A stretch of DNA of 52,322 nucleotides from Clostridia bacterium (GTDB taxonomy: Bacteria > Bacillota_A > Clostridia > Lachnospirales > Cellulosilyticaceae). The stretch spans positions 1 through 52,322 of the forward strand of contig JARBTY010000005.1 of assembly GCA_029239935.1 (NCBI GenBank). Direction: 5' to 3'. Under the pieces are notes generated by a model. It saw nothing but the letters and a program-made list of their open reading frames with translations. It had not been told where the DNA came from and made no database searches. Below, one piece after another: positions 10,294 through 43,220 of this stretch. The translations under genes were made by a program, and so were the position numbers. How positions within the stretch are numbered: position 1 is the stretch's first letter; each line of letters begins with the position of its first letter.

Positions 10294-10367
10294 ATAATCT
10301 ATGTGTAGATATAAGCATTTTAATCTATTAGAATCTTTATATATACATATAAAAAGGAGTGTCATCT

Positions 10368-11222
10368 ATGGGCAATATTATTGATGCTAACAATATTGTA
10401 TTTGAATATTACAATTATGATGAAAATGGAGAAAAAAAAGAAGCCATCACAGCGCTTAATCATATAAGCATTTCAGTTAAAAAAGGAGAATTCCTAGTCA
10501 TACTAGGGCATAATGGATCTGGTAAATCTACTTTTGCAAAACATCTTAATGCTATTTTAACGCCAAAAGAAGGAACACTTTTTGTAAGTGGTATAGATGC
10601 AGCTAATCCTAAGAATGTTTGGGACATAAGAAGAGAAGTAGGAATGGTTTTTCAGAATCCTGATAATCAAATAGTAGCAACTATCATAGAAGAAGATGTC
10701 GCATTTGGGCCTGAAAATATTGGTATACCAGCAGATAAGATTAGAGAGCGAGTAGATGCTGCATTAGATACTGTAAATATGAGTGACTATAAACGCAGAT
10801 CTCCCAATCAACTTTCAGGAGGTCAAAAACAGCGCATAGCTATAGCAGGAGTAATAGCTATGCAGCCACAGTGCATTGTATTTGATGAATCCACTGCTAT
10901 GTTGGATCCTGTTGGGAGAAGACAGGTTATGCATACTATGGAGAAGCTAAATAAGGAATATGGCATTACAATCATTCATATCACTCATTATATGCAGGAA
11001 GCTATAAACGCAGATCGTATCATTGTTATGGAAAAGGGAGAAGTTGTTATAGAGGGAACACCAAGAGAGGTCTTTAAGGAAGTAGAAATACTAAAAAATG
11101 TAGGCTTAGATGTCCCAGATACAACCTATCTTATTTATCTTCTTAATAAAGAAGGCTTTAACTTTAAACCTGACATATTAACTATAGAAGAGGTGGTAAG
11201 CGAAATATGGCAATCAAGATAA
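10368..11222 (+). CDS. ecfA1: ECF transporter ATP-binding protein EcfA1
   Basis: This 284-residue ABC ATPase is half of the motor that drives energy-coupling-factor vitamin importers. Visible are Walker [10 protein letters not shown] (about residue 45), the signature LSGGQKQR (about 147) and Walker [14 protein letters not shown], with Ser in place of the usual Pro after DE. The ATG at 10368 is chosen over a GTG at 10359 because the latter overlaps the AAGGAG site. It overlaps ecfA2 by 16 bases. The substrate is set by S components encoded elsewhere. Confidence 0.94.
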
Positions 11223-12070
11223 AACAACTTACGCATATTTATAACCCAAACACACCTTTTGAAAAAATAGCATTAGAAGATATTAATATAGAAATAAATG
11301 ACGGTGAGTTTATAGGTATAATAGGGCATACAGGATCAGGAAAAAGTACCCTCATTCAAATGTTCAACGGACTTATCAAACCTACTTCAGGAGAAGTCTT
11401 TATAAAAGGGCAGAACATACATGCTTCAGATGTAGATAAAAAGAGGATAAGGCAGCAAGTAGGCCTTGTATTTCAGTATCCAGAACATCAGCTTTTCGAG
11501 ATGACAGTTTATGAGGATGTTGCGTTTGGTCCTAAGAATATGGGACTTTCAGAGAATGAAATAAGAGATCGAGTAGACTATGCATTAAAAGCGGTAGGTA
11601 TGAGTGAAGAATATTATGAGAAGTCGCCTTTTGAACTTTCAGGAGGCCAAAAAAGAAGAGTTGCCATCGCAGGTGTGCTCGCTATGAAACCAGATATACT
11701 TATACTTGATGAACCAACAGCTGGCCTTGATCCAAAAGGGAGAGATGCATTATTTAATCAGCTTAAGAAAATGCATGAAGAATTAGGACTTACAATTGTT
11801 CTTATATCTCATAGCATGGAAGATGTAGCAAAGTATGCTGAAAAACTCATTGTTCTATACCAAGGGAAAATAGCTTATCAAGCAGCGACAAGAGAAGTAT
11901 TCGCTAAAGGTAAGGAGCTAGAAGCGATAGGTCTTGCTATGCCTCAAATTCGTTATATAGTAGAATCCCTTAAAGCAAGAGGTATGTCAATAAGTACAGA
12001 TGTCTTAACAGTAGAAGAAGCAGCAAGTATTATTAAAGATTACTTAAGGAAAGGAGGAGACTTTCAGTGA
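11207..12070 (+). CDS. ecfA2: ECF transporter ATP-binding protein EcfA2
   Basis: This 287-residue ABC ATPase pairs with EcfA1. Walker A is GHTGSGKST (about residue 40), the signature LSGGQKRR (about 144) and Walker [14 protein letters not shown] (about 162). The C-terminal region [13 protein letters not shown] is typical of EcfA2. It starts inside the end of ecfA1 and its TGA overlaps the GTG start of ecfT (GTGA), so the three are translationally coupled. Confidence 0.94.
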
Positions 12071-12858
12071 TTCGCGACATAACAATAGGTCAGTATTATC
12101 CTGTTTCCTCACCTATCCATAGATTAGATCCGAGAACAAAGATACTTATTACGTTTATATATATCATCAGCCTATTTTTCATAACATACTTCCCAGGATA
12201 TGCTTTTGTAGTACTTGCTTTGTATGCAGTAATAAACACAAGCCGCGTTCCACTACAGTTTATGTTAAAAGGGCTAAAAGGAATTGCCTTTATACTTCTA
12301 TTTACCGTAGTGCTCAACGTTTTTTTTACACCCGGAGGGACTGTATACTATGAATGGGGAGTTATTCGTATTACGGAACTTGGAGTTATGACTGCCGTGA
12401 TGATGGGGACAAGACTTATATTACTTATAGTTGGCTCATCACTTTTGACACTGGCAACCTCTCCTATTGAACTTACTGATGGTATAGAATCACTTTTAAA
12501 TCCATTTAGAAAGATGGGAGTTCCTGCTCATGAAATAGCTATGATGATGAGTATATCTCTTAGATTTATTCCAATTCTATTAGAAGAAACGGATAAAATT
12601 ATGAAAGCGCAAACGGCAAGAGGGGCAGACTTTGAGACTGGAAATATCATAAAAAGAGCTAAAGCAATGATTCCAATTATGGTGCCGCTTTTTATATCTG
12701 CTTTTAGACGGGCAGAAGAACTTGCAATGGCAATGGAGGCAAGATGCTATCGCGGTGGTGAAGGGCGTACTAGAATGAATAAATTGCAGTATAAGAAGCA
12801 AGACGTGTATGCGTTTATAGCAGGGGGAGTATTTATGTTAGGATGTATCCTGCTATAA
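12067..12858 (+). CDS. ecfT: ECF transporter transmembrane protein EcfT
   Basis: This 263-residue membrane protein is the T component that links the EcfA ATPases to S components. It begins with the family's HRLDPRTKIL motif (about residues 18-27). Multiple transmembrane segments follow, then the coupling helices with the MSISLRFIPILLEETDKIMKAQ region and the A-R-G signature (ARGADFE near residue 183, EARCYRGG near 231). GTG start overlaps ecfA2. No S-component gene is adjacent. Confidence 0.94.
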   Translation: MIRDITIGQYYPVSSPIHRLDPRTKILITFIYIISLFFITYFPGYAFVVLALYAVINTSRVPLQFMLKGLKGIAFILLFTVVLNVFFTPGGTVYYEWGVIRITELGVMTAVMMGTRLILLIVGSSLLTLATSPIELTDGIESLLNPFRKMGVPAHEIAMMMSISLRFIPILLEETDKIMKAQTARGADFETGNIIKRAKAMIPIMVPLFISAFRRAEELAMAMEARCYRGGEGRTRMNKLQYKKQDVYAFIAGGVFMLGCILL

Positions 12859-32782: not shown

Positions 32783-33952
32783 TTGAAACTAAGGCATCTC
32801 ACAAAGACTATTACAGGTGTGATTTTAGGTATAAGCCTAACAAGTATAGCTATAGGCTGCAGCAGTCTGGCTTCTGGTGATAAATATTCAAAGTCCAAAA
32901 TTAATCAAATAAGTAAACTGCTTCAGCATAGCTATCTAAGAGACATAGATAATAAAAAAATTGAAGACAGCATTTACGCTGGATATGTAAGTGGTTTAGA
33001 AGACCCTATGACAATTTATTTAAACGAAGAACAGTTTGAAAAGCAGCAAGTACTAGAGGAAGGTAAATATATAGGAACAGGACTTCAGTTTGAATGGGGA
33101 CTGAATGGAAGATATATTATCGTTACAGATATTATAAAAGACTCGCCAGCATCACTTGAAGACATCAAAATAGGTGATAAAATTATCGAAATTGATGGGA
33201 TAAAGGTAATGCTTGCAAATGAAACTGAACTTTATGAAAAGCTAAGTTATACTGGAGATAAACCAGTAACCTATACTTTTGAGGATAATGATGGAAGTCG
33301 TAAAAGGCAGATAAAACTTATGTCAAAGATTATTAATATAAAGAGCATGTCACATAAGATACTTAAAAATAATATAGGTTATGTTACTGTGTTTGCTGTT
33401 AAAGAAGGAGCAAGCAAAGAGTTAGAGCAGATTATTAAAGAACTAGAAGCAAGTGGTGCAAAAAGTTTTATATTTGACCTAAGAAATGCATATAGTAATA
33501 ATATAGAAGAAATTTATCAAATGGCTAATTTATTTATTAATGAAAAAGTTGCCTTTAAAATCAAAAATAAAAAGGGCGAGATCAAAGAATATAAAACTAT
33601 GAATGCAGCTTACGAAGAACCAGTAGCCATTCTTATTAATGAAAGGACGAAGGGAGCGCCAGAAGCATTTGCAGCAGCTATAAAAGATGCTAAAAGGGGC
33701 ATGATAATAGGAACAGCTTCAGCAGGAGTTGGCAGTGTTAATGAGATTATTCCCCTGCAGGATAAGACAGGGCTTATGGTTGCTACTGGCATTATTTATA
33801 CAGCTGGAGACATCAGTTTAAAAGATAAAGGTGTGACACCTGATATTGAAATAAAAAGTGGTGTAGAAGCAGTTATAGAACTTATTACCAAAGGGAAAAT
33901 CGATGAAAAAAATGACTTACAGCTTATGGAAGCTTTAAACCGACTTAGTTAA
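32783..33952 (+). CDS. S41 peptidase-like lipoprotein lacking the catalytic Ser and Lys
   Basis: This 389-residue protein has a lipobox (SIAIGC, Cys at about 26), a PDZ domain (about 95-180) and an S41 core. Aligned with the neighbouring intact paralogue, the catalytic Ser position holds Gly291 (KGAPE instead of SASASE) and the catalytic Lys position holds Val316 (SAGVG instead of TFGKG). It is therefore probably inactive as a protease and may act as a substrate binder or regulator. The start is TTG after AAGGAG. The reading frame is intact throughout. Confidence 0.85.
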   Translation: MKLRHLTKTITGVILGISLTSIAIGCSSLASGDKYSKSKINQISKLLQHSYLRDIDNKKIEDSIYAGYVSGLEDPMTIYLNEEQFEKQQVLEEGKYIGTGLQFEWGLNGRYIIVTDIIKDSPASLEDIKIGDKIIEIDGIKVMLANETELYEKLSYTGDKPVTYTFEDNDGSRKRQIKLMSKIINIKSMSHKILKNNIGYVTVFAVKEGASKELEQIIKELEASGAKSFIFDLRNAYSNNIEEIYQMANLFINEKVAFKIKNKKGEIKEYKTMNAAYEEPVAILINERTKGAPEAFAAAIKDAKRGMIIGTASAGVGSVNEIIPLQDKTGLMVATGIIYTAGDISLKDKGVTPDIEIKSGVEAVIELITKGKIDEKNDLQLMEALNRLS

Positions 33953-34056
33953 ATGTATAATATAGGTAAAGCATTATAAGGATAATAATCTAAAAAGAAA
34001 CGTAAAATAGAATAAGACGCATTAAGACATACTTAATTTGAAGGAGGGTGGCATTT

Positions 34057-35220
34057 ATGAAAAAAGATGGTTTTTTTCGAGGTGCCGCTATAGGTTTTTT
34101 ATTATCAGCAATAGTACTCTTCACAAGCACAGCCTTTGTAGATAAATACTATTATGTAGATAAAAAATTATTAGCGATAGAATCAGTCATTAATAATTAT
34201 TTTGTAGGGGATATGGACCGCACTAAAATGCAGGAAGGCATCTATAAAGGCTTTGTTGCAGGAGTTGGTGACATTTATACTAACTACTATACAGCAGAAG
34301 AATATGCAAGCTTTAAAGAAAAGTCCAGTGGTGTTTATGCAGGAATAGGTGTACAGATGACTGTCGATGTAACAGATAATACTATTCTTATTACAGAAGT
34401 ATTTGAAGGCTCCCCAGCCCAGAAGGCAGGAATACTGCCAAAAGATAAAATTATTAAGGCAGCTGGGAAGACTTTGACAGGGGATGACTTTGAACTTGTT
34501 CCTAAGATTGTGAAAGGAGCACCCAACACACAAGTTACTGTAACTATTTATAGACAATCAGAGAATAAGATGTATGATTTTGAACTCACCAGGCAAAATG
34601 TTACTTATCCATCTGTTTCATACAAAATGATAGATAAGCAATTAGCTTATATAAAAATTAGCCAATTTGAGGAAACCACATACGATCAGTTTAAAAAGGC
34701 GTTAACTGATGTACAAGGTAAAAAAGCTCAAGGGATTGTACTTGATCTTAGAAATAATCCAGGAGGACTACTCCATATTACAGAAAAGATAGCAGATGAA
34801 CTTTTACCAAAGGTACTTATTGTATCAACAAGAGATAAAAATGGTACGGTAGATGAAGCCTATGCTGATGATAAGTATACAACCATCCCAATTGTAGTAG
34901 TCGTGAATGGGGATAGTGCAAGTGCATCAGAAGTTTTGTCAGGTGCACTCAAAGACCATAAGAGAGCAAAACTTGTTGGAGAAACAACATTTGGTAAAGG
35001 GGTAGTTCAAAGTGTGGTGCCGCTTAGTGATGGCTCAGCACTGAAGCTTACTACTGCAAAGTATTTTACTCCTAGTGGTATATGTATTCAAGGTATTGGT
35101 ATAGATCCAGACTATAAAGTATCCTTGCCAGAGGAAATCCTTACTAGAGGAAATTTACAAGATAAAGAAGATACGCAGCTTCAAAAAGCTATAGAAGTAG
35201 TAAGACAAGAAATAAAATAG
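34057..35220 (+). CDS. ctpB: C-terminal processing peptidase, S41 family (CtpB-like)
   Basis: This 387-residue serine protease has an N-terminal membrane anchor (about 8-30), a PDZ domain (about 85-170) and the S41 core. The catalytic Ser289 is in GDSASASE and the catalytic Lys314 in TTFGKG, 25 residues apart as in the family. Such proteases cleave C-termini of exported substrates. ATG at 34057 follows AAGGAGGG; a GTG at 34048 lies inside that site. It lies downstream of ftsEX, as ctpB does in Bacillus subtilis. The symbol is by similarity. Confidence 0.92.
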   Translation: MKKDGFFRGAAIGFLLSAIVLFTSTAFVDKYYYVDKKLLAIESVINNYFVGDMDRTKMQEGIYKGFVAGVGDIYTNYYTAEEYASFKEKSSGVYAGIGVQMTVDVTDNTILITEVFEGSPAQKAGILPKDKIIKAAGKTLTGDDFELVPKIVKGAPNTQVTVTIYRQSENKMYDFELTRQNVTYPSVSYKMIDKQLAYIKISQFEETTYDQFKKALTDVQGKKAQGIVLDLRNNPGGLLHITEKIADELLPKVLIVSTRDKNGTVDEAYADDKYTTIPIVVVVNGDSASASEVLSGALKDHKRAKLVGETTFGKGVVQSVVPLSDGSALKLTTAKYFTPSGICIQGIGIDPDYKVSLPEEILTRGNLQDKEDTQLQKAIEVVRQEIK

Positions 35221-35235: not shown

Positions 35236-35901
35236 ATTCCAGTTAGTACAGATAAAAAGAAACTTTTACGAGATCTTAGTATAGGGACACTTTTAAGTTT
35301 GTTTATTGTGCTGTTTAAACTCACTATACCCTTTACTTGGAATATACTTTTTATAGTGCCTGTAAGTTTTCTGTGCATGCTCATTAACAAAAGACTAACC
35401 TGTTTATCCTATGGGATACCAATACTTTATGTATGCGATAGATTCGTTTTAACGATGGGATTTGATTTAAGTTTAATTAGTCTGCCCTATGAGAATTTAA
35501 TTATTTTAATAGGGATACTGCATATGACAGAAGGAGTCCTAATTATACTAGATGCGAAGAAAAATAATGAGTGTGCTATAACATACAAAGGAAATAAATT
35601 AGTAGGGGGATACCAAACTTATAAAAAGTGGTTTATCCCCCTATTTTTCTTTTCAATTCGAGATATTTATCTGCCTATACTAGTTATTATGGCCTATGCT
35701 GATGAAACATTCACAATGAGCCCTATAAAAAAAGCAGTTGCTATGGGAAAATATATTTTTTTCTATGGTATGTTGATAAGTCTATTGGGATATTTTACTT
35801 TTAAACAAAGTCTTTCGCTTATATTAGTAATGATTTGTATGCCTTTGCTTCATGAAACACTATTTATCATTAATAAACGTTTAGAAATAAAAAACAAATA
35901 G
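35236..35901 (+). CDS. Polytopic membrane protein, possible MinJ-type membrane domain, apparent ATT start
   Basis: The frame stays open from the ctpB stop. A strong AAAGGAGG (35224-35231) is followed by no in-frame ATG, GTG or TTG until 35299, which has no ribosome site. ATT at 35236 would give about 221 residues with a charged N-terminus (PVSTDKKKLLRDLS) followed by about six membrane helices. The context ftsEX-ctpB-membrane protein recalls B. subtilis, where minJ follows ctpB; this protein has no PDZ domain. LIGILHMTEGVLIILD is the best candidate conserved block. The MinJ link is inference. Confidence 0.6.
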   Translation: MPVSTDKKKLLRDLSIGTLLSLFIVLFKLTIPFTWNILFIVPVSFLCMLINKRLTCLSYGIPILYVCDRFVLTMGFDLSLISLPYENLIILIGILHMTEGVLIILDAKKNNECAITYKGNKLVGGYQTYKKWFIPLFFFSIRDIYLPILVIMAYADETFTMSPIKKAVAMGKYIFFYGMLISLLGYFTFKQSLSLILVMICMPLLHETLFIINKRLEIKNK

Positions 35902-36001: not shown

Positions 36002-36030
36002 TTGACGAAATCCGACTTGTTTGATATAAT
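36002..36030 (+). promoter_or_regulatory. Sigma-A promoter of the electron-transfer locus with overlapping inverted repeat
   Basis: TTGACG (36002-36007) and TATAAT (36025-36030) are separated by 17 bases. They lie 32 bases before the first gene of the locus. An imperfect inverted repeat, GTCGAAATTTGT (35983-35994) with ACGAAATCCGAC (36005-36016), 9 of 12 positions matching, brackets the -35 box and could be an operator. The regulator is unknown; it is not a clear Rex or Fur site. Confidence 0.75.
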
Positions 36031-36061
36031 TAATAGGTAAAAATGTATAGAGGAGGGCACT

Positions 36062-38089
36062 ATGGAAAAAAGAATAGTAATTGTCGGCGCCGGTTATGCA
36101 GGGATTTTGACAGCTAAAAAATTAGCTAAGAAACTAAAGAAAAATAATGATATTAGTATTACTATTATTGATAAAAACCCATTTCACACTATGCTTACTG
36201 AACTTCATGAAGTCGCAGCTAATCGTGTTGATGAAGATAGTATTAAAATAAGCTTAAATAAGGTTTTTGCAGGAAGAAAAGTTAACGTTAAACTTGATAC
36301 TGTAAACTCAATTGACTTTGATAAAAAATGCGTTGTAGGTTCAAATGAAAGCTACGGGTATGATTACCTTGTGCTTGCTGCAGGTTCAAAGCCTACATTT
36401 TTTGGTGTAGAAGGAGCAGAAGAATTTTCTTTTAAGCTTTGGTCTTATGAAGATGCAGTTATATTAAGAGAACATATTCATACATCATTTAGAAAAGCAG
36501 TGTGTGAAACTAACCTGGAAGAAAAGAAAAGATTATTAACTTTTCACGTGGTTGGTGCCGGCTTTACCGGCGTAGAAATGGCAGGTGAACTTGCTGAGTA
36601 CGTGCCGATTCTTTGTGAAAAGTATGAAATTGACAGAAGACTTGTAACAATCTGTAACGTAGACATATTAGAACGCAGTGTACCTATTTTGCCAGAGAAG
36701 CTTTCACGTAAAGTTGAAAGACGTCTTGAAAAAATGGGTGTTAAAATGATGCTTAGTACAAGCGTTGCTGCAATAGGCAGTGACTTCATTAAAGTAAAAT
36801 CAAAAGATATAGTTACTACCCAAAGTACCGGAACTGTTATTTGGGCAGCTGGTATCGAAAGTGCAGAAATTACTTGTGAAGCAGCAAAGACTTTAGAGTC
36901 AGCACAAAGAGGACGTATAAAACTTGATGCTTATCTTCGTTCACTTGATAATGATCACGTGTTTGTAGTTGGTGATAATATGTTTTATACACCAGAAGGT
37001 GAAGATCAGCCAGTTCCGCAGATGGTCGAAAACTGTGAGCATAGTGCTGCCACTTGTGCGAAAAATATTGTTTGTGCTATTACAGGTAAAGGTGAAATGG
37101 AGAGGTACAAGCCATCTTTCCACGGAGTAATGGTTTCAGTAGGGGGACGTTATGGGGTGGCTAGAGTTGGTCTGCCAAATCTCATGTTTAATCTTCCTTC
37201 TTTCCTTGCAATGCTTTCAAAACACTTCATCAACATTATTTATTTTATTCAGGTACTAGGATGGAATAAAGTATTTAGTTATATGAAACATGAGTTTTTC
37301 ACTATAAGAAACTGCAGAAGCTTTGTTGGAGGGCATTTCTCAAACAGAACACCTAGCTTCTTATTAATGCCGCTTAGGGTATGGCTCGGCGGGGTTTGGC
37401 TTTTTGAAGGAATCATGAAAATCGTAGAAGGCTGGCTTAATACCCCTAAATTAACAGGTTTCTTTGGCGGGGCTAATGCATGGTATAACAGCATTCTTGG
37501 CAACGCAGCAGCGGGAGCAGTAACAGATGCAGTTACTGCAGCAACAGAAGCAGCAGGTGCAGCAGCAGGTGCGGCAACAGACGGAGTAACAGCAGCAACA
37601 GGAGCAGCTGAAGCGACAGGCACTGCAGTTGAAGCTGTTGGAAGAGTCATTTTTAACTTTGATTTTATTGGTCTTTTCCAAGCGATCTTTGTAAGCGGGA
37701 AAGATTTAGTACATTCAACCATTAGTGACTATGCTTTTAAGTTAGATGTTCCACTTATGAACTGGTTTGTTGATACGTTTATTATGCCTTACGATTCTGT
37801 TCAAGTTTTTATGCAGATATTTATTGTAGTAGCAGAAATTTTAATAGGTCTTGCTCTTATAGGCGGGTTGTTTACTACTCCAGCAGCAGCATTTTCATTA
37901 GTACTTCAGATTATGTTTGTATGCACGACTGGATTGTACTTAGGAACCTTCTGGATGATTTTTGCTGCTATTGCAGTTCTAATTGGGGCAGGAAGAACAC
38001 TTGGACTTGATTATTACGCTATGCCATGGCTTAAAAAAGTATGGAAAAAATTACCGATTGTAAGAAAGTTGTATATTTACAATGATTAA
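36062..38089 (+). CDS. ndh2: Membrane-fused type II NADH dehydrogenase of extracellular electron transfer
   Basis: This 675-residue protein has an NDH-2 flavoprotein part (about 1-400): FAD motif IVIVGAGYAGILTAKKL, NADH motif VVGAGFTGVEMAGEL (about 162) and VFVVGDNMF (about 300). A membrane region of DoxX-like character (about 415-660) follows, split by an Ala/Thr/Gly-rich linker (about 479-526). Listeria Ndh2 of the flavin-based extracellular electron transfer pathway also carries a membrane extension. It should pass electrons from NADH to demethylmenaquinone. Its 3' end overlaps the next gene by 8 bases. Confidence 0.88.
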   Translation: MEKRIVIVGAGYAGILTAKKLAKKLKKNNDISITIIDKNPFHTMLTELHEVAANRVDEDSIKISLNKVFAGRKVNVKLDTVNSIDFDKKCVVGSNESYGYDYLVLAAGSKPTFFGVEGAEEFSFKLWSYEDAVILREHIHTSFRKAVCETNLEEKKRLLTFHVVGAGFTGVEMAGELAEYVPILCEKYEIDRRLVTICNVDILERSVPILPEKLSRKVERRLEKMGVKMMLSTSVAAIGSDFIKVKSKDIVTTQSTGTVIWAAGIESAEITCEAAKTLESAQRGRIKLDAYLRSLDNDHVFVVGDNMFYTPEGEDQPVPQMVENCEHSAATCAKNIVCAITGKGEMERYKPSFHGVMVSVGGRYGVARVGLPNLMFNLPSFLAMLSKHFINIIYFIQVLGWNKVFSYMKHEFFTIRNCRSFVGGHFSNRTPSFLLMPLRVWLGGVWLFEGIMKIVEGWLNTPKLTGFFGGANAWYNSILGNAAAGAVTDAVTAATEAAGAAAGAATDGVTAATGAAEATGTAVEAVGRVIFNFDFIGLFQAIFVSGKDLVHSTISDYAFKLDVPLMNWFVDTFIMPYDSVQVFMQIFIVVAEILIGLALIGGLFTTPAAAFSLVLQIMFVCTTGLYLGTFWMIFAAIAVLIGAGRTLGLDYYAMPWLKKVWKKLPIVRKLYIYND

Positions 38090-39062
38090 TGAGAATATAA
38101 GAAAAAGTGATAACACTGAATTTATAGCATTTGACGAGGCGTATAGACTTGTACAAGATGAAATGGATAAGGCATTATCAAGAGGACCTCTTATCATTCG
38201 TAAACATATGGAGCATTTAAAACTGTCAAGAGGTAAGGGGATTCGCGCAGTATCATTACTGGCCTCCGCTGAAAATAAAGAAGGTTTTATTCATTTAGAT
38301 GCTGTTAAGTTTGCAGCTGCTATTGAACTTCTTCATCTTGCAACACTTGTTCATGATGACGTAATAGATAATGCGGACCTTAGAAGGGGTGTTATAACAC
38401 TTCAAAAAAAATATGGACAAAAAACTGCAGTTATTTGCGGCGATTATTTACTCTGCGTCGCACTTAACCTTGCAGCATCTGTTTCAAATAAAGAGGACTA
38501 CCTTAATGTGAATATGCCGGATTACATGGGAAGTGTATGCCTTGGTGAATTAAATCAGCATATCAATAATGGTAATCTGGATTTATCGATGTATGAATAT
38601 CTCAAAATTATATCAGGTAAAACTGCAGCTCTTTTTGAAGCTTCGTTTTATGCAGGCGCTATTGTTTGTGAAGAAAATGAGGCTGATGTTAAGAAGTATA
38701 AAAGGCTGGGACGCTACATTGGTATGATCTTTCAGCTAACTGATGATTGTATAGATTTTGAGACAACTGAAGAGGTAGCTAAAAAACCAGTTCAATCTGA
38801 TTTTGAGCAGGGAGTTATAACACTTCCCCTTATTCATGCTTTCAATCACATGGTAAGCTTCAAAGAAAAAGCTAGATTAAATAAAGTATCCAGAACAGAG
38901 CTTAATGATGCTGTCCTAAAGACAGGGGGACTTGTTTTTACCCGTATGGTGCTAAAAAAATATTATAATAAGTCACTCAAAATCATTAATGAACTTTCAA
39001 TTACAGAGGATAAAAGGGCAAAGTTCATATCTATTTTAGATAAAGCTTCTGGTTTAATGTAA
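38082..39062 (+). CDS. dmkB: Polyprenyl diphosphate synthase (DmkB-like)
   Basis: This 326-residue trans-prenyltransferase builds the isoprenoid tail for a quinone. The two Asp-rich motifs are present: HDDVIDNADLRRG (about residue 88) and LTDDCIDF (about 220). It overlaps ndh2 and precedes the UbiA-type gene, matching the paired genes that supply demethylmenaquinone in the Listeria electron-transfer locus. Chain length is not readable by eye. The symbol is by synteny. Confidence 0.88.
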   Translation: MINENIRKSDNTEFIAFDEAYRLVQDEMDKALSRGPLIIRKHMEHLKLSRGKGIRAVSLLASAENKEGFIHLDAVKFAAAIELLHLATLVHDDVIDNADLRRGVITLQKKYGQKTAVICGDYLLCVALNLAASVSNKEDYLNVNMPDYMGSVCLGELNQHINNGNLDLSMYEYLKIISGKTAALFEASFYAGAIVCEENEADVKKYKRLGRYIGMIFQLTDDCIDFETTEEVAKKPVQSDFEQGVITLPLIHAFNHMVSFKEKARLNKVSRTELNDAVLKTGGLVFTRMVLKKYYNKSLKIINELSITEDKRAKFISILDKASGLM

Positions 39063-39081
39063 TATAAAGTGGGAGGAACAA

Positions 39082-39984
39082 TTGATTAAGAATTTTCTAA
39101 ACTATGTTGAAATAAGGACGAAAATTACCAGTCTATTTGCTTTTTTAATGACAATTGCCTTACTTCTATATATGAAGCAAACAATAAACTGGAAGTTAAC
39201 AAGTATATTTTTTATTGCAATGTTTTTATTTGATCTTACAACTACAGCAATTAATAATTATATTGATACAAAAACAAATGATCAAACACTGCCATTTAAA
39301 AGAAGTACGGCACGGATTATTATATATGGGCTGCTAGGGATAAGTATTATTTTAGGACTCTATTTAGCTTATCTAACTGATATTGTCATTTTTCTCCTAG
39401 GAGGATTATGTTTCTTATGTGGGATTTTTTATACCTATGGACCAGTTCCTATATCAAGACAGCCTTTAGGAGAAATAATGTCAGGGATTTTTTATGGTCT
39501 CTTAATACCATTTATTTTGTTATATATTAACATGCCAGAAGGGACATTCCTTTCATTAATATTAAGTTTACAAACAATTACTTTATCTTTAAATATTATA
39601 CCCCTATTCACAGTCTTGATTTTTTCAATTATTCCAGTTTGTGTGACAGCTAATATAATGCTCGCAAACAACATCTGTGATTTAGAAAAAGATATTGAAG
39701 TTAAAAGACACACACTTCCTTACTATTTAGGAGATAAATCACTTTACTTATTTGCAGGAATTTATTATTTAACTTATATTGCAACAATAATGATGGTAAT
39801 ATTAAAAGTTCTTCATCCTATATGCTTAGCAGCACTGCTTACTTTTTTTATTGTGCAAAAGAACATAAATTTATTCTTTAAGGTACAAGATAAGAAGACA
39901 ACGTTTGTTTTATCTATTAAAAACTATATTATTATTATGGGAGCAAATACTTTAATGATTTTTGTAAGTATATTGTTTGCTTAG
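39082..39984 (+). CDS. dmkA: UbiA-family prenyltransferase (DmkA/MenA-like)
   Basis: This 300-residue membrane enzyme has about eight helices and the two Asp-rich motifs of UbiA prenyltransferases: NNYIDTKTNDQ (about residue 55) and NNICDLEKDIEVKR (about 195). It should join a polyprenyl chain to dihydroxynaphthoate, making demethylmenaquinone. The start is TTG, following GGGAGG. It lies in the same run as ndh2 and the polyprenyl synthase; no other menaquinone genes are in the window. Confidence 0.86.
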   Translation: MIKNFLNYVEIRTKITSLFAFLMTIALLLYMKQTINWKLTSIFFIAMFLFDLTTTAINNYIDTKTNDQTLPFKRSTARIIIYGLLGISIILGLYLAYLTDIVIFLLGGLCFLCGIFYTYGPVPISRQPLGEIMSGIFYGLLIPFILLYINMPEGTFLSLILSLQTITLSLNIIPLFTVLIFSIIPVCVTANIMLANNICDLEKDIEVKRHTLPYYLGDKSLYLFAGIYYLTYIATIMMVILKVLHPICLAALLTFFIVQKNINLFFKVQDKKTTFVLSIKNYIIIMGANTLMIFVSILFA

Positions 39985-39998
39985 CAGGTGAAAATAAG

Positions 39999-40388
39999 AT
40001 GAAGTTTTTTAAGAAGTCTGATGTGATAGTTATTTTAATTATTATTGTAATAAGCGTCGTCTCTTGGGTAATCTATCATTCTATCTTTTCAAAAAAGGCA
40101 GCTAAAGCTGAAATTTATTACTATTCAGAGCTTGTTGAAACAGTTGATCTAAATACTGGAGTAGAGAGAACCTTTTCTATTCCTCAAGATGAGCATGTTA
40201 TTTTTCATCTGTATAAAGATGGGAAAATTCGTTTTGAAGAGTCAGACTGCCCAGATAAGGTATGCATAAAAACAGGGAAGCTTAGTATGGTAGGACAAAG
40301 TGCAGCATGTCTCCCCAATGCTATCATATTAAAAATTGTTCCTGAAAAGAAACATGCAGAGGATGACCTTGATATGATTGCTCAATAA
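39999..40388 (+). CDS. eetA: NusG domain II protein (EetA-like)
   Basis: This 129-residue protein has one N-terminal membrane helix (about 8-28) and an exported NusG-domain-II-like beta domain (about 40-129) with EESDCPDKVCIKTGKLSM and QSAACLPNAI. Such proteins pair with Gx-transporter proteins and FMN-binding proteins in electron-transfer loci. The Cys residues of DCPDKVC and AACLP are typical of this family and might be redox-active. It begins 14 bases past the UbiA-type gene. The symbol is by similarity to the Listeria locus. Confidence 0.8.
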   Translation: MKFFKKSDVIVILIIIVISVVSWVIYHSIFSKKAAKAEIYYYSELVETVDLNTGVERTFSIPQDEHVIFHLYKDGKIRFEESDCPDKVCIKTGKLSMVGQSAACLPNAIILKIVPEKKHAEDDLDMIAQ

Positions 40389-40402
40389 TAGAAAGGCGTA
40401 TT

Positions 40403-40948
40403 ATGGATGAAAAAGAAATGGATAATAAATCTAAGATAAGTTTTAACAAGACCAAATTTATGGTTTTAACAGCATTGCTTTTTGCTGTTGCTATAGTGCT
40501 TTCTATAGTCGAAAATACACTTCCGCCACTTCCAGCTGCTGTGCCAGGAGTAAAACTTGGGCTTTCTAATATTGCGGTTATGTATGCACTGTTCTTTTTA
40601 GGAAAAAAAGAAGCATTTGCAATAGCTGTTTTAAAGGCCCTATTTGTATTTATCACTAGAGGGGCTGTTGCAGGCTTTTTAAGCTTATCTGGGGGGATAC
40701 TGTCATTAGCAGTCATGATTATTATGATGATAATCTTTAGAGATAAAGTGTCTTACCTCATTACTAGTATTTTTGGATCAGTATTTCACAATGTAGGACA
40801 GTTTATTGCCATATACTGTATTTACACTTCTATATATTTATGGGCATATCTTCCGGTCCTTTTGATTTCTGGAGTGATTGCAGGGATTGCAACGTCCACA
40901 TTACTTAAGTTTATTTTTCCAGCTTTTAAAAAGCTTGGTTTAAAATAA
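40403..40948 (+). CDS. eetB: Gx transporter family membrane protein (EetB-like)
   Basis: This 181-residue membrane protein has about five to six helices and the PAAVPGVKLGLSNIAVMYAL block (about residues 44-63) and FLSLSGGILSLAVM (about 92) that define the family often annotated as heptaprenyl diphosphate synthase component I. That name is misleading; in electron-transfer loci it is a membrane partner of the NusG-domain-II protein. It lies 14 bases after that gene. It resembles ECF S components in general fold. Confidence 0.8.
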   Translation: MDEKEMDNKSKISFNKTKFMVLTALLFAVAIVLSIVENTLPPLPAAVPGVKLGLSNIAVMYALFFLGKKEAFAIAVLKALFVFITRGAVAGFLSLSGGILSLAVMIIMMIIFRDKVSYLITSIFGSVFHNVGQFIAIYCIYTSIYLWAYLPVLLISGVIAGIATSTLLKFIFPAFKKLGLK

Positions 40949-40973
40949 AAATAATATCATTAGGAGGTCAATG

Positions 40974-42053
40974 ATGAAAAAAACATTAACATTATTACTT
41001 AGCGTATCTTTAGCATTTGTTACACTTACTGGATGTGGTGCTAAAGACAAAACAGAAACTGCGGTAGCAGAGACTACTGTAACAGAAGCTCCAAAGGCAG
41101 AAGAAACAGCAGAAGCACCAGCTTCAGGGGATGCTGTGAAAACAGGTCTTGCAGTTATCTCATCAGCAGCAAAATCTAAAGATGCAGCAGAAGAAGACGG
41201 TCTTGCTCAAGCGGATTCAACAGTGGTTGCAGTTACAGTTGATAAAGACGGCAAAATTGTAAAATGCGTTATTGATGCAGCTCAAACAAAAATTAACTTT
41301 TCTAAAACAGGGGAACTTACTACTGATGTAAAGAGCGAGTTCAAAACCAAAGTAGAACTTGGTGCTGACTATGGTATGGCTAAAGCATCTTCTATTGGTA
41401 AAGAGTGGGCAGATCAAGCAGCAGCTCTTGCAGATTATGTAGTTGGTAAAACAGTTGAAGAAGTAAAGGGCATTGCAGTAAATGAAAAAGGAGCTCCTTC
41501 AGATGCTGAGCTTGCAGCTTCTGTAACAGTTGGAATTGGTAACTATGTAAGTGCTATTGAGAAAGCTGTAGCTAACGCTAAAGAGTTAGGGGCTACAAGC
41601 GCTGATAAGTTAGGCTTAGGTGTTGTGACTAACATTGCAAAATCTAAAAACGCAGCAGAAGAAGATGGACTTGCACAAGCTTACTCGAGTTATGCAGCTT
41701 TAACTTTTGGAGCAGATGGTAAAATCACAAGTGCCATTATTGATGGTTCTCAAACTAATATTAATTTCTCTAAAGAAGGAAAAATTACATCTGATATCAA
41801 TGCTGCTCAAATGACTAAAGTTGAGCTTGGTGAAAAATATGGAATGAAAAAAGCATCAGGAATCGGCAAAGAATGGTTCGAACAAGCAGATGCTCTTTCA
41901 AAATACATAGTTGGCAAAACTATTGAAGAAGTTAAAGGTATTGCAGTAAATGAAGAAGGTGCTCCAACAGATGCAGAACTTACAGCTTCTGTAACAATTA
42001 AACTTGGAGATCATATTAAAAACTTCGAAAAAGCAAGTGCCAACGCAAAATAG
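40974..42053 (+). CDS. pplA: Flavin-accepting lipoprotein with two tandem FMN-binding-like repeats (PplA-like)
   Basis: This protein of about 359 residues has a lipobox (TLTGCGAK, Cys near 21), a Glu/Ala/Thr-rich spacer (about 25-55) and two repeats of about 140 residues (about 55-202 and 213-352). Each repeat ends with a DAELxAS motif (Ser near 183 and near 339), resembling the D-x-x-x-x-A-S/T flavinylation site used by ApbE. It should carry covalent FMN outside the membrane and pass electrons on. ATG at 40974 has better spacing than the ATG at 40971. ApbE is encoded next door. Confidence 0.88.
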   Translation: MKKTLTLLLSVSLAFVTLTGCGAKDKTETAVAETTVTEAPKAEETAEAPASGDAVKTGLAVISSAAKSKDAAEEDGLAQADSTVVAVTVDKDGKIVKCVIDAAQTKINFSKTGELTTDVKSEFKTKVELGADYGMAKASSIGKEWADQAAALADYVVGKTVEEVKGIAVNEKGAPSDAELAASVTVGIGNYVSAIEKAVANAKELGATSADKLGLGVVTNIAKSKNAAEEDGLAQAYSSYAALTFGADGKITSAIIDGSQTNINFSKEGKITSDINAAQMTKVELGEKYGMKKASGIGKEWFEQADALSKYIVGKTIEEVKGIAVNEEGAPTDAELTASVTIKLGDHIKNFEKASANAK

Positions 42054-42070
42054 TTATTAAAACATTAAGG

Positions 42071-42097
42071 GAGGTAGTTTGACTACCTCTCATTTTT
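42071..42097 (+). terminator. Hairpin between the lipoprotein and apbE genes
   Basis: GAGGTAGT (42071-42078) pairs with ACTACCTC (42082-42089) around TTG, followed by TCATTTTT. It is a small terminator-like hairpin inside the locus. It could reduce readthrough into apbE, making the abundant lipoprotein the better expressed gene, or stabilise its mRNA 3' end. Confidence 0.6.
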
Positions 42098-42110
42098 AGA
42101 GGTGAGAAGT

Positions 42111-43160
42111 GTGCTTAGAAAGCTTTTTGCATGTGTCCTTATAATGATACTAACAATGAATTTTACAGCTTGCAGCAGTCCTAAAACGACCAGGTATGAA
42201 GCTGAATTTCTTGTACTGTTTGATACTGTAACAAAAATTGTAGCATATACCAAAAGTAAAGAAGAGTTCACAAAATATTCGCAGCTTATTTATGATGGCC
42301 TTAAAGAGTATCATGAACTGTATGATATTTATAATGATTACGAAGGAATTAATAATATAAAAACGATAAACGATAACGCAGGCATTAAGCCGGTTAAAGT
42401 TGACAAAAAGATCATAGATTTGATGCTTTTTGCAAAAGAGGAATATAAAAACACCAATAGTAAAATGAACATTGCTTTTGGCTCTGTACTAAAAATTTGG
42501 CATGATTACCGCACAGAAGGAATCGATGATCCTGAAAAGGCAAAACTGCCTCCAATGGATAAGCTGAAGGCTGCAAAAGAGCACACGGATATCAATAAAG
42601 TAATCATTGATGAGGCTGAATCTACAGTCTTTCTGAGTGACCCTGAGATGTCTCTTGATGTTGGAGCTGTAGGAAAGGGCTTTGCAGCTGAACAGGTTTG
42701 TCAGATGGCAATAAAAGCGGGATTTACTTCAGGTCTTATTAGCGTTGGAGGAAATGTTCGTGCAATTGGTAATAAGGGAGAAAGTAAAAAGCTATGGAAT
42801 ATTGGCATTCAGAATCCTAATAAGGAAGATGAGGAGTCTATTCTTAAAGTAGCTTATTTAAGTGACCTTTCCCTGGTAACAAGCGGAGATTATGAAAGGT
42901 ATTATACAGTTAATGGTAAAAATTATCATCATATCATTAATCCTGAAACATTATTGCCATCAGATTATTTTACAGCTATTACAATCATTTGTAAGGATTC
43001 AGGCGTTGCTGACGCACTTTCTACTGCAGTATTTAATATGCCTTTCGAACAGGGGTTAGAACTTATTGATAGCTTGCCTGATGCGGAAGCCTTATGGATA
43101 TTTAAAAATGGAGAAATTAAAACAAGTGCAAAGTTTAATGATTTAATTGGAGAACAATAA
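42111..43160 (+). CDS. apbE: FAD:protein FMN transferase, lipoprotein (ApbE/FmnB)
   Basis: This 349-residue enzyme links FMN to Ser/Thr of exported proteins, using FAD. It has a lipobox (NFTACSS), FDTVTKIVAY (about 42), LDVGAVGKGFAAEQV (about 181), GGNVRAIG (about 208) and the HHIINPETLLPSDYFTAI block (about 265). GTG at 42111 is chosen because the GTG at 42102 lies within the AGAGGTGA ribosome site. Its obvious substrate is the neighbouring two-repeat lipoprotein. Confidence 0.93.
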   Translation: MLRKLFACVLIMILTMNFTACSSPKTTRYEAEFLVLFDTVTKIVAYTKSKEEFTKYSQLIYDGLKEYHELYDIYNDYEGINNIKTINDNAGIKPVKVDKKIIDLMLFAKEEYKNTNSKMNIAFGSVLKIWHDYRTEGIDDPEKAKLPPMDKLKAAKEHTDINKVIIDEAESTVFLSDPEMSLDVGAVGKGFAAEQVCQMAIKAGFTSGLISVGGNVRAIGNKGESKKLWNIGIQNPNKEDEESILKVAYLSDLSLVTSGDYERYYTVNGKNYHHIINPETLLPSDYFTAITIICKDSGVADALSTAVFNMPFEQGLELIDSLPDAEALWIFKNGEIKTSAKFNDLIGEQ

Positions 43161-43169
43161 GGCAAATTT

Positions 43170-43220
43170 AAACCATTAAAGTAGGACAAGTACCTTGCTT
43201 TAATGGTTTGTTTAGTTTTA
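43170..43220 (+). terminator. Terminator after apbE
   Basis: AAACCATTAAAG (43170-43181) pairs perfectly with CTTTAATGGTTT (43198-43209), 12 base pairs around a 16-base loop, followed by GTTTAGTTTTA. It closes the electron-transfer locus. Confidence 0.82.

Follow-up and report, generated by a model that had tools for sequence, protein, structure and literature searches.

Flavinylation-like heptads in a predicted extracytosolic loop of the membrane-fused NADH dehydrogenase of a clostridial flavin-based electron transfer locus

The closest described counterpart of the locus reported here is the flavin-based extracellular electron transfer (FLEET) locus of Listeria monocytogenes, which consists of ndh2, eetA, eetB, dmkB, dmkA, pplA, fmnB and fmnA. 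A locus drawn from the same gene families, including a membrane-fused Ndh2, a flavin lipoprotein with two sites (PplA) and ApbE, lies at positions 36,002 to 43,220 of the window, by which we mean the whole 52,322 nucleotide (nt) stretch analysed from a Clostridia bacterium of the Cellulosilyticaceae (contig JARBTY010000005.1, assembly GCA_029239935.1). Our subject is the NADH dehydrogenase Ndh2, in which a loop predicted to face outward carries heptads resembling flavinylation sites, a new point that is not found in the preliminary description of this DNA. From these motifs we consider it likely that Ndh2 is an ApbE substrate, the second beside PplA, and that it carries an arm with tethered flavin mononucleotide (FMN).

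Statements from the literature, here and below, refer to passages of the papers cited. For E. faecalis, Listeria and L. plantarum, the protein that hands electrons directly to ferric ion is stated not to be known; E. faecalis requires EetB but not PplA, and screens have given no gene outside the FLEET locus (PMC9864754). Deletion of pplA left the anode current of L. plantarum normal, ndh2 was needed for current, and pplA and ndh2 mutants were both impaired in ferrihydrite reduction; FLEET genes save pplA were found in 68 of 68 Lactococcus strains (PMC8837199). An extracellular electron transfer (EET) system is defined in PMC8238504 by a membrane NADH dehydrogenase within a flavinylation cluster.

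Seven adjoining open reading frames (ORFs) on the + strand, at 36062-43160, encode Ndh2, DmkB, DmkA, EetA, EetB, a two-repeat lipoprotein and ApbE. The preliminary description had claimed seven contiguous genes on one strand, which the ORF list and the family matches bear out, and had recognised the Listeria gene set in another order. The latter is upheld by identity to Listeria EetB (35% across 160 residues) and EetA (28% across 67 residues), by the alignment of the PplA sites and by related loci, 19 of 80 of which have the identical seven-gene order; among the rest, some are truncated at contig ends and some have another order. Judged by its sequence, the assignment to a Listeria-type FLEET locus is well supported. 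The differences from Listeria are that all of the window genes lie on one strand, that their order is another one, that fmnA is absent and that the loop of Ndh2 holds a repeat array, whereas the Listeria loop holds a single SGAS. The nearest relatives of the window Ndh2 are found in a Cellulosilyticum strain (85% identity) and in uncultured clostridial metagenome-assembled genomes. In one such genome (L071) two Ndh2 ORFs are present at the locus, the gene being either split or duplicated.

The ndh2 gene (36062-38089, +) matches Pyr_redox_2 and encodes a type II NADH dehydrogenase (NDH-2) fused to a C-terminal membrane domain, for which a DoxX match falls below cut-off. The protein has the NDH-2 fold, with Caldalkalibacillus NDH-2 as the closest solved structure (1.6 Å over ~400 columns), and the helices that follow this fold may be read as four membrane spans (435-455, 578-601, 605-622 and 627-640). 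Between the first two lies an Ala-rich, predicted extracytosolic loop, residues 480-530 (37499-37651, +), which is predicted to be disordered, the predicted local distance difference test score being below 50 at 484-524. Across 81 clostridial proteins the 33 residues before the first span contain a mean of 5.2 Lys and Arg and the 35 C-terminal residues 6.9, while the 121-residue stretch between the first and second spans averages 5.3 Lys and Arg against 10.9 Asp and Glu. Because these charges obey the positive-inside rule, and because the structure model agrees, the loop is predicted to lie on the outer face of the membrane. A motif scan placed two heptads in it, DAVTAAT at residues 489-495 (37526-37546, +) and DGVTAAT at residues 507-513 (37580-37600, +). 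Their codons differ synonymously at 3 of 7 positions, in addition to one replacement, so that the two copies do not stem from a recent duplication of the DNA. Among window ORFs of at least 80 amino acids on both strands, flavinylation-like sites occur only in Ndh2 and PplA. The family search gave no FMN_bind match in Ndh2, the motifs sitting bare in the linker.

Such heptads occur in nearly all of the clostridial Ndh2 examined. A set of 120 homologues left 95 for analysis after trimming at anchor positions (25 were dropped, as their anchors were not found), and D..[ST][GAS]A[ST] is present one or more times in every one of the 95; the loops hold 216 copies against 1.9 in shuffled loops, with none outside. 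The exact Gly-type textbook motif, Dxx[ST]GA[ST], is seen in a minority (17 of 95). A second set, consisting of 80 genome loci and the window, was scanned with the pattern [DE]..[ST][GAST]A[ST], which is present in 78 of 81 proteins with a total of 151 copies. Shuffled loops gave a mean of 3.4 copies (maximum 10 in 1000 runs), a first-order Markov null gave 4.3 (maximum 10 in 300 runs), and no heptad was found in the 50,884 residues outside the loops of these 81 proteins. Exactly six residues upstream of A[ST] is where 165 of the 217 loop Asp residues stand. The narrower pattern occurs in 72 of the 80 loci, with E or T variants in five of the remaining eight. Loop length ranges from 26 to 93 residues, and copies per loop reach seven (L091).

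The motif also occurs outside of the Clostridia. In Listeria Ndh2 the loop reads SGAS at 490-493, and in the Ndh2 of 122 Listeria-like Bacilli these columns contain S/T in 122, G/A/S in 122 (Gly in 100), A in 122 and S/T in 122, within an otherwise variable loop that has a gap-rich stretch after these columns and little other repetition. The exact [ST]GA[ST] is found in the loop of 101 of the 122, in 110 copies against 2.6 after shuffling (maximum 11 in 300); as a 4-mer it is less specific, with 13 occurrences in the 66,905 residues outside the loops. We also examined the order to which genome G253 belongs, which we take to be Lactobacillales in the GTDB sense. Of 60 loci from this order (L203-L262), 57 carry the motif and the other three read DATAGAS. 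The exact Dxx[ST]GA[ST] is seen in 29 (for example as DATSGAS or DPTSGAT), and 11 more have Glu for Asp. When extended to 116 loci the exact form was seen in 39, the Glu form in 14 and the core [ST]GA[ST] in 92, with 95 strict heptads in the loops and 1 in the 63,127 residues outside them. An Ndh2 arm of this kind is probably common to much of the family. Stand-alone DoxX proteins contained [STA]G[AS][ST] in 0 of 9.

The same order allowed the company of the loop to be examined. Among its 395 genomes, 228 have an Ndh2 match and 353 an ApbE match, absences being read from the match list. The 116 Ndh2 loci comprise one set of 60 less four broken or partial ones and a second set of 60, which we chose so as to sample high, intermediate and low scores. 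A motif-bearing loop is present in 105 (four only through a looser pattern), and 104 of these 105 genomes have ApbE. The other 11 Ndh2 proteins are loop-less, with 5-19 residues in its place, and their genomes contain no ApbE in nine cases, a weak match in one and a clear match in one (G659). The association of loop and ApbE gives a Fisher value of 1.5e-12, uncorrected for descent. Genes, motifs, their position, their conservation and this company with ApbE can all be read directly from the genomes.

Several observations weigh against flavinylation of Ndh2. In the heptads of the window itself Ala replaces the Gly of the textbook motif, three clostridial loci (L037, L056 and L078) have no heptad even under the broad pattern, and 18 distant loci from the phylum of G005 (L096, L098-L113 and L115) have only [SA]G[AS]S directly after the first span, without Asp at -6. 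The 116 loci were selected by score and are non-random. Within them G409 has the motif without an ApbE match and G659 has ApbE without the loop. A tree built from the dehydrogenase portion places the loop-less proteins in only two clades, one with 8 members and one with 3. With the midpoint root the clade of 8 is sister to all others and may never have possessed a loop, which weakens an argument from independent losses; a clear loss is seen only in the clade of 3, to which the ApbE-bearing G659 belongs. A PplA match is found in 0 of the 11 loop-less genomes. On the physiological side, pplA-less Lactococcus made current but reduced Fe(III) little or not at all, and PplA-independent current could alternatively be carried by excreted quinone, which is named in the references of the same paper (PMC8837199). 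As for the literature, no claim of a flavinylated Ndh2 was met in the passages searched, and this coverage did not extend to the two founding FLEET papers (Light 2018, 2019). Wording on flavinylation appeared only in the reference lists within the passages from PMC8837199, PMC9888254, PMC9094743, PMC12810646, PMC8547011 and PMC10572741, and the passages of PMC8238504, PMC11334425, PMC12052999, PMC9973259, PMC8906456, PMC10339131, PMC7074142 and PMC9864754 contain no claim of Ndh2 flavinylation. Those of PMC8585091 report FrdA, NqrB and NqrC as flavinylated and do not so report its Ndh2.

Some of these points would be expected of an ordinary FLEET pathway in which PplA alone is flavinylated and the Ndh2 loop serves as a flexible spacer, or as a site at which PplA or ApbE docks, that is present or absent together with the pathway. 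The predicted disorder of the loop suits such a role. Because all 11 loop-less genomes are without a PplA match as well, ApbE cannot be separated here from the pathway as a whole. However, a spacer has no need of a constant spacing between Asp, Ser/Thr, Ala and Thr/Ser, and three genomes, G559 (EAVSGAS), G413 (DATSGAS) and G316 (the looser DATAGAS), keep both ApbE and the loop without a PplA match, a statement whose scope is the PplA match and not other possible ApbE substrates. We regard an exclusive role of PplA as rather unlikely.

A disordered extracytosolic loop with numerous exposed Ser and Thr could alternatively be modified in another manner, such as by phosphorylation or glycosylation, or could bind metal or free flavin, but the pattern is that of the ApbE motif, with Asp at -6 and Ala at -1, it stands in a locus that encodes ApbE, and ApbE accompanies motif-bearing loops, which makes these options very improbable. 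That the heptads are functionless by-products of a low-complexity Ala tract, as the Ala-rich composition and variable length of the loop might suggest, is scarcely credible given counts ~40-fold above composition-preserving shuffles (a comparison that did not include unrelated Ala-rich linkers of these genomes) and the retention of the motif in Listeria-type loops despite little other repetition.

If Ndh2 is indeed a substrate of ApbE, the pathway may be pictured as follows. Flavin adenine dinucleotide (FAD) would be exported through EetB with its energy-coupling factor (ECF) partners. Outside of the cell the lipoprotein ApbE would move FMN from FAD onto extracytosolic proteins, namely onto Thr186 and Thr342 of PplA and onto the Ndh2 arm, where the Thr/Ser of the D-x-x-[S/T]-[G/A/S]-A-[S/T] heptads in the flexible Ala-rich loop between the first and second spans would be modified. 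Ndh2 could then act as a single-chain conduit, in which electrons move from NADH to FAD in the cytosol, on to quinone in the membrane and then to FMN borne outside by a swinging arm; the arm FMN would in turn pass them to PplA or straight to an external acceptor. In its logic such an arm resembles the swinging arms of other multi-step enzymes. Flavinylation of Ndh2, the sequence in which the redox steps follow one another and the role of the arm are what we infer from the motifs and their company. Seven residues are enough for flavinylation by ApbE, and a tag placed in a surface loop is modified, if less completely; in one model protein, replacement of Gly by Ala cuts flavinylation to ~50%, and the effects of losing the Asp are minor (PMC12052999). 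The chemistry is in these respects favourable to modification of the Ndh2 heptads.

A likeness to the Ndh2 loop is offered by flavoproteins of known kinds that have gained ApbE motifs, one or two each, through an inserted loop or an extension of the C-terminus, and that were shown to be flavinylated. Unlike Ndh2, they are not membrane dehydrogenases, have no motif arrays and carry the motif at the flavin-binding site, whereas that of Ndh2 is on a predicted disordered arm. The membrane subunits NqrB and RnfD are also transmembrane ApbE substrates (PMC11334425), yet they have a distinct fold and are subunits of larger complexes. Multi-flavinylated proteins likewise have several predicted FMN sites per extracytosolic protein (PMC8238504), but theirs reside in more than one FMN-binding domain, in contrast to the bare linker motifs joined to a dehydrogenase across the membrane in Ndh2; in the sense of Meheust (more than one FMN-binding domain) Ndh2 falls outside that class.

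The broader proposition is that FLEET Ndh2 is in general a covalent extracytosolic flavoprotein with 1-7 tethered FMNs on a flexible arm, that electrons from NADH in the cytosol reach the exterior through this single polypeptide, that it is the missing donor in PplA-free EET, and that clostridia tuned it by multiplying the flavin sites of the arm; we find this finely balanced, with the scales tipping slightly in its favour. If true, a flavinylated Ndh2 would fit both the requirement for EetB and PplA-independent current, although the Lactococcus iron result would not be explained by it alone. ApbE is present in Lactococcus lactis, our control row, where it has FMN_red as another known substrate (PMC11334425). 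It could account for electron export without the usual flavin lipoprotein where PplA is dispensable, and the question of the missing donor in Gram-positive EET would be answered through one set of residues. It would also supply a reason for the membrane fusion of Ndh2 and an instance in nature of ApbE acting on bare linker motifs, as it does on the artificial flavin-tag.

The other presumed ApbE substrate is the pplA-like lipoprotein (40971-42053, +), with two FMN-bind-type domains. Site 1, ELAASVT (41508-41528, +), places Thr186 in alignment with Thr143 of Listeria PplA, and site 2, ELTASVT (41976-41996, +), aligns Thr342 with Thr265. The window sites are 156 residues apart, compared with 122 in Listeria, and read ELxASVT where Listeria has SGAT. 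The family search of the products that the preliminary description proposed matched the Ndh2, EetA, EetB and ApbE families, while the lipoprotein had no meaningful Pfam or NCBIfam match, including to the NCBI PplA model; with its two ApbE sites it nonetheless qualifies as a FLEET PplA. Two of its relatives, P0002 (594 residues) and P0004 (518 residues), contain more repeats, and P0002 has Gly, not Ser, two residues before the aligned FMN-Thr. In 30 of the 50 genomes that have a PplA match, the best match spans only ~40-60% of the query with its two domains and often contains a stop codon; PplA in those genomes appears to be single-domain or decaying, and many of them retain the Ndh2 motif. The apbE (fmnB) gene (42102-43160, +; the start may really be 42111) encodes a lipoprotein FAD:protein FMN transferase (PF02424, 3.3e-66), whose best solved relative by sequence is the FAD:protein FMN transferase 7esa, which we take to be Listeria FmnB.

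Between ndh2 and pplA lie eetA (39999-40388, +), membrane-anchored with NusG domain II (NusG_II), and eetB (40403-40948, +), of ECF S type (Gx transporter; Hpre_diP_synt_I, with ECF_trnsprt below cut-off). In Listeria, FAD is bound by EetB, which serves as the ECF S subunit in its export together with the T subunit FmnA and shared ATPases, and RibU is dispensable in Listeria when riboflavin is made by the cell (PMC9973259). The preliminary description was correct in that RibU is not within the locus, but an argument from its absence finds no support, because EetB is itself of ECF S type and because of this dispensability. Of nine genomes from relatives, seven encode the riboflavin synthase RibH. 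No CbiQ-type gene was found by the family search among the seven locus genes, and we do not regard fmnA inside the locus as obligatory for FLEET. Apart from the locus, between the genes for L17 and a pseudouridine synthase, the window holds ecfA, ecfA' and ecfT (10359-12858, +), two ECF ATPases and a CbiQ-type T component (ecfT at 12067-12858), which would be natural partners of EetB.

The remaining genes concern the quinone. Polyprenyl diphosphate synthase is encoded by dmkB (38082-39062, +; polyprenyl_synt), and a UbiA-type prenyltransferase by dmkA (39082-39984, +; UbiA, with 1,4-dihydroxy-2-naphthoate (DHNA) polyprenyltransferase models below their cut-offs). The loci of relatives G001-G009 hold dmkB and mostly dmkA too. 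Passage of electrons through demethylmenaquinone, as had been suggested, is plausible from DmkA and DmkB, but MenB, the only enzyme searched for, is above cut-off in 0 of these 9 genomes, with weaker crotonase-type matches in 8, and the quinone head group is therefore perhaps imported or scavenged. The quinone may thus depend on imported DHNA, with which L. plantarum is supplied (PMC8837199).

A sigma-70-like promoter, TTGACG-17-TATAAT with TG and 11 of 12 consensus bases, precedes ndh2 (36002-36030, +). It is the top-scoring such site of the scanned region, where sigma-70-like sites overall are not enriched over shuffles (46 vs 44.9). A terminator-like stem-loop, found by the hairpin scan, follows apbE (43169-43210, +). 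The view that one promoter and one terminator bound the locus stands with respect to the promoter-like site, but a second hairpin with a T-run, a potential terminator or attenuator with a 10-bp stem and -14.8 kcal/mol, lies between pplA and apbE (42069-42091, +). Comparable pplA-apbE hairpins occur in 37 of 60 related loci by a simple scan that had no control. If terminating, it would leave pplA mRNA more abundant than apbE mRNA and may set an excess of PplA over ApbE. Directly upstream of the locus, a 200-residue membrane protein (35299-35901) had no significant Pfam or NCBIfam match. It is preceded at 32783-35220 by two adjoining S41-type C-terminal processing proteases, recognised from their translations only, the first of which appears by eye to be degenerate at the active site.

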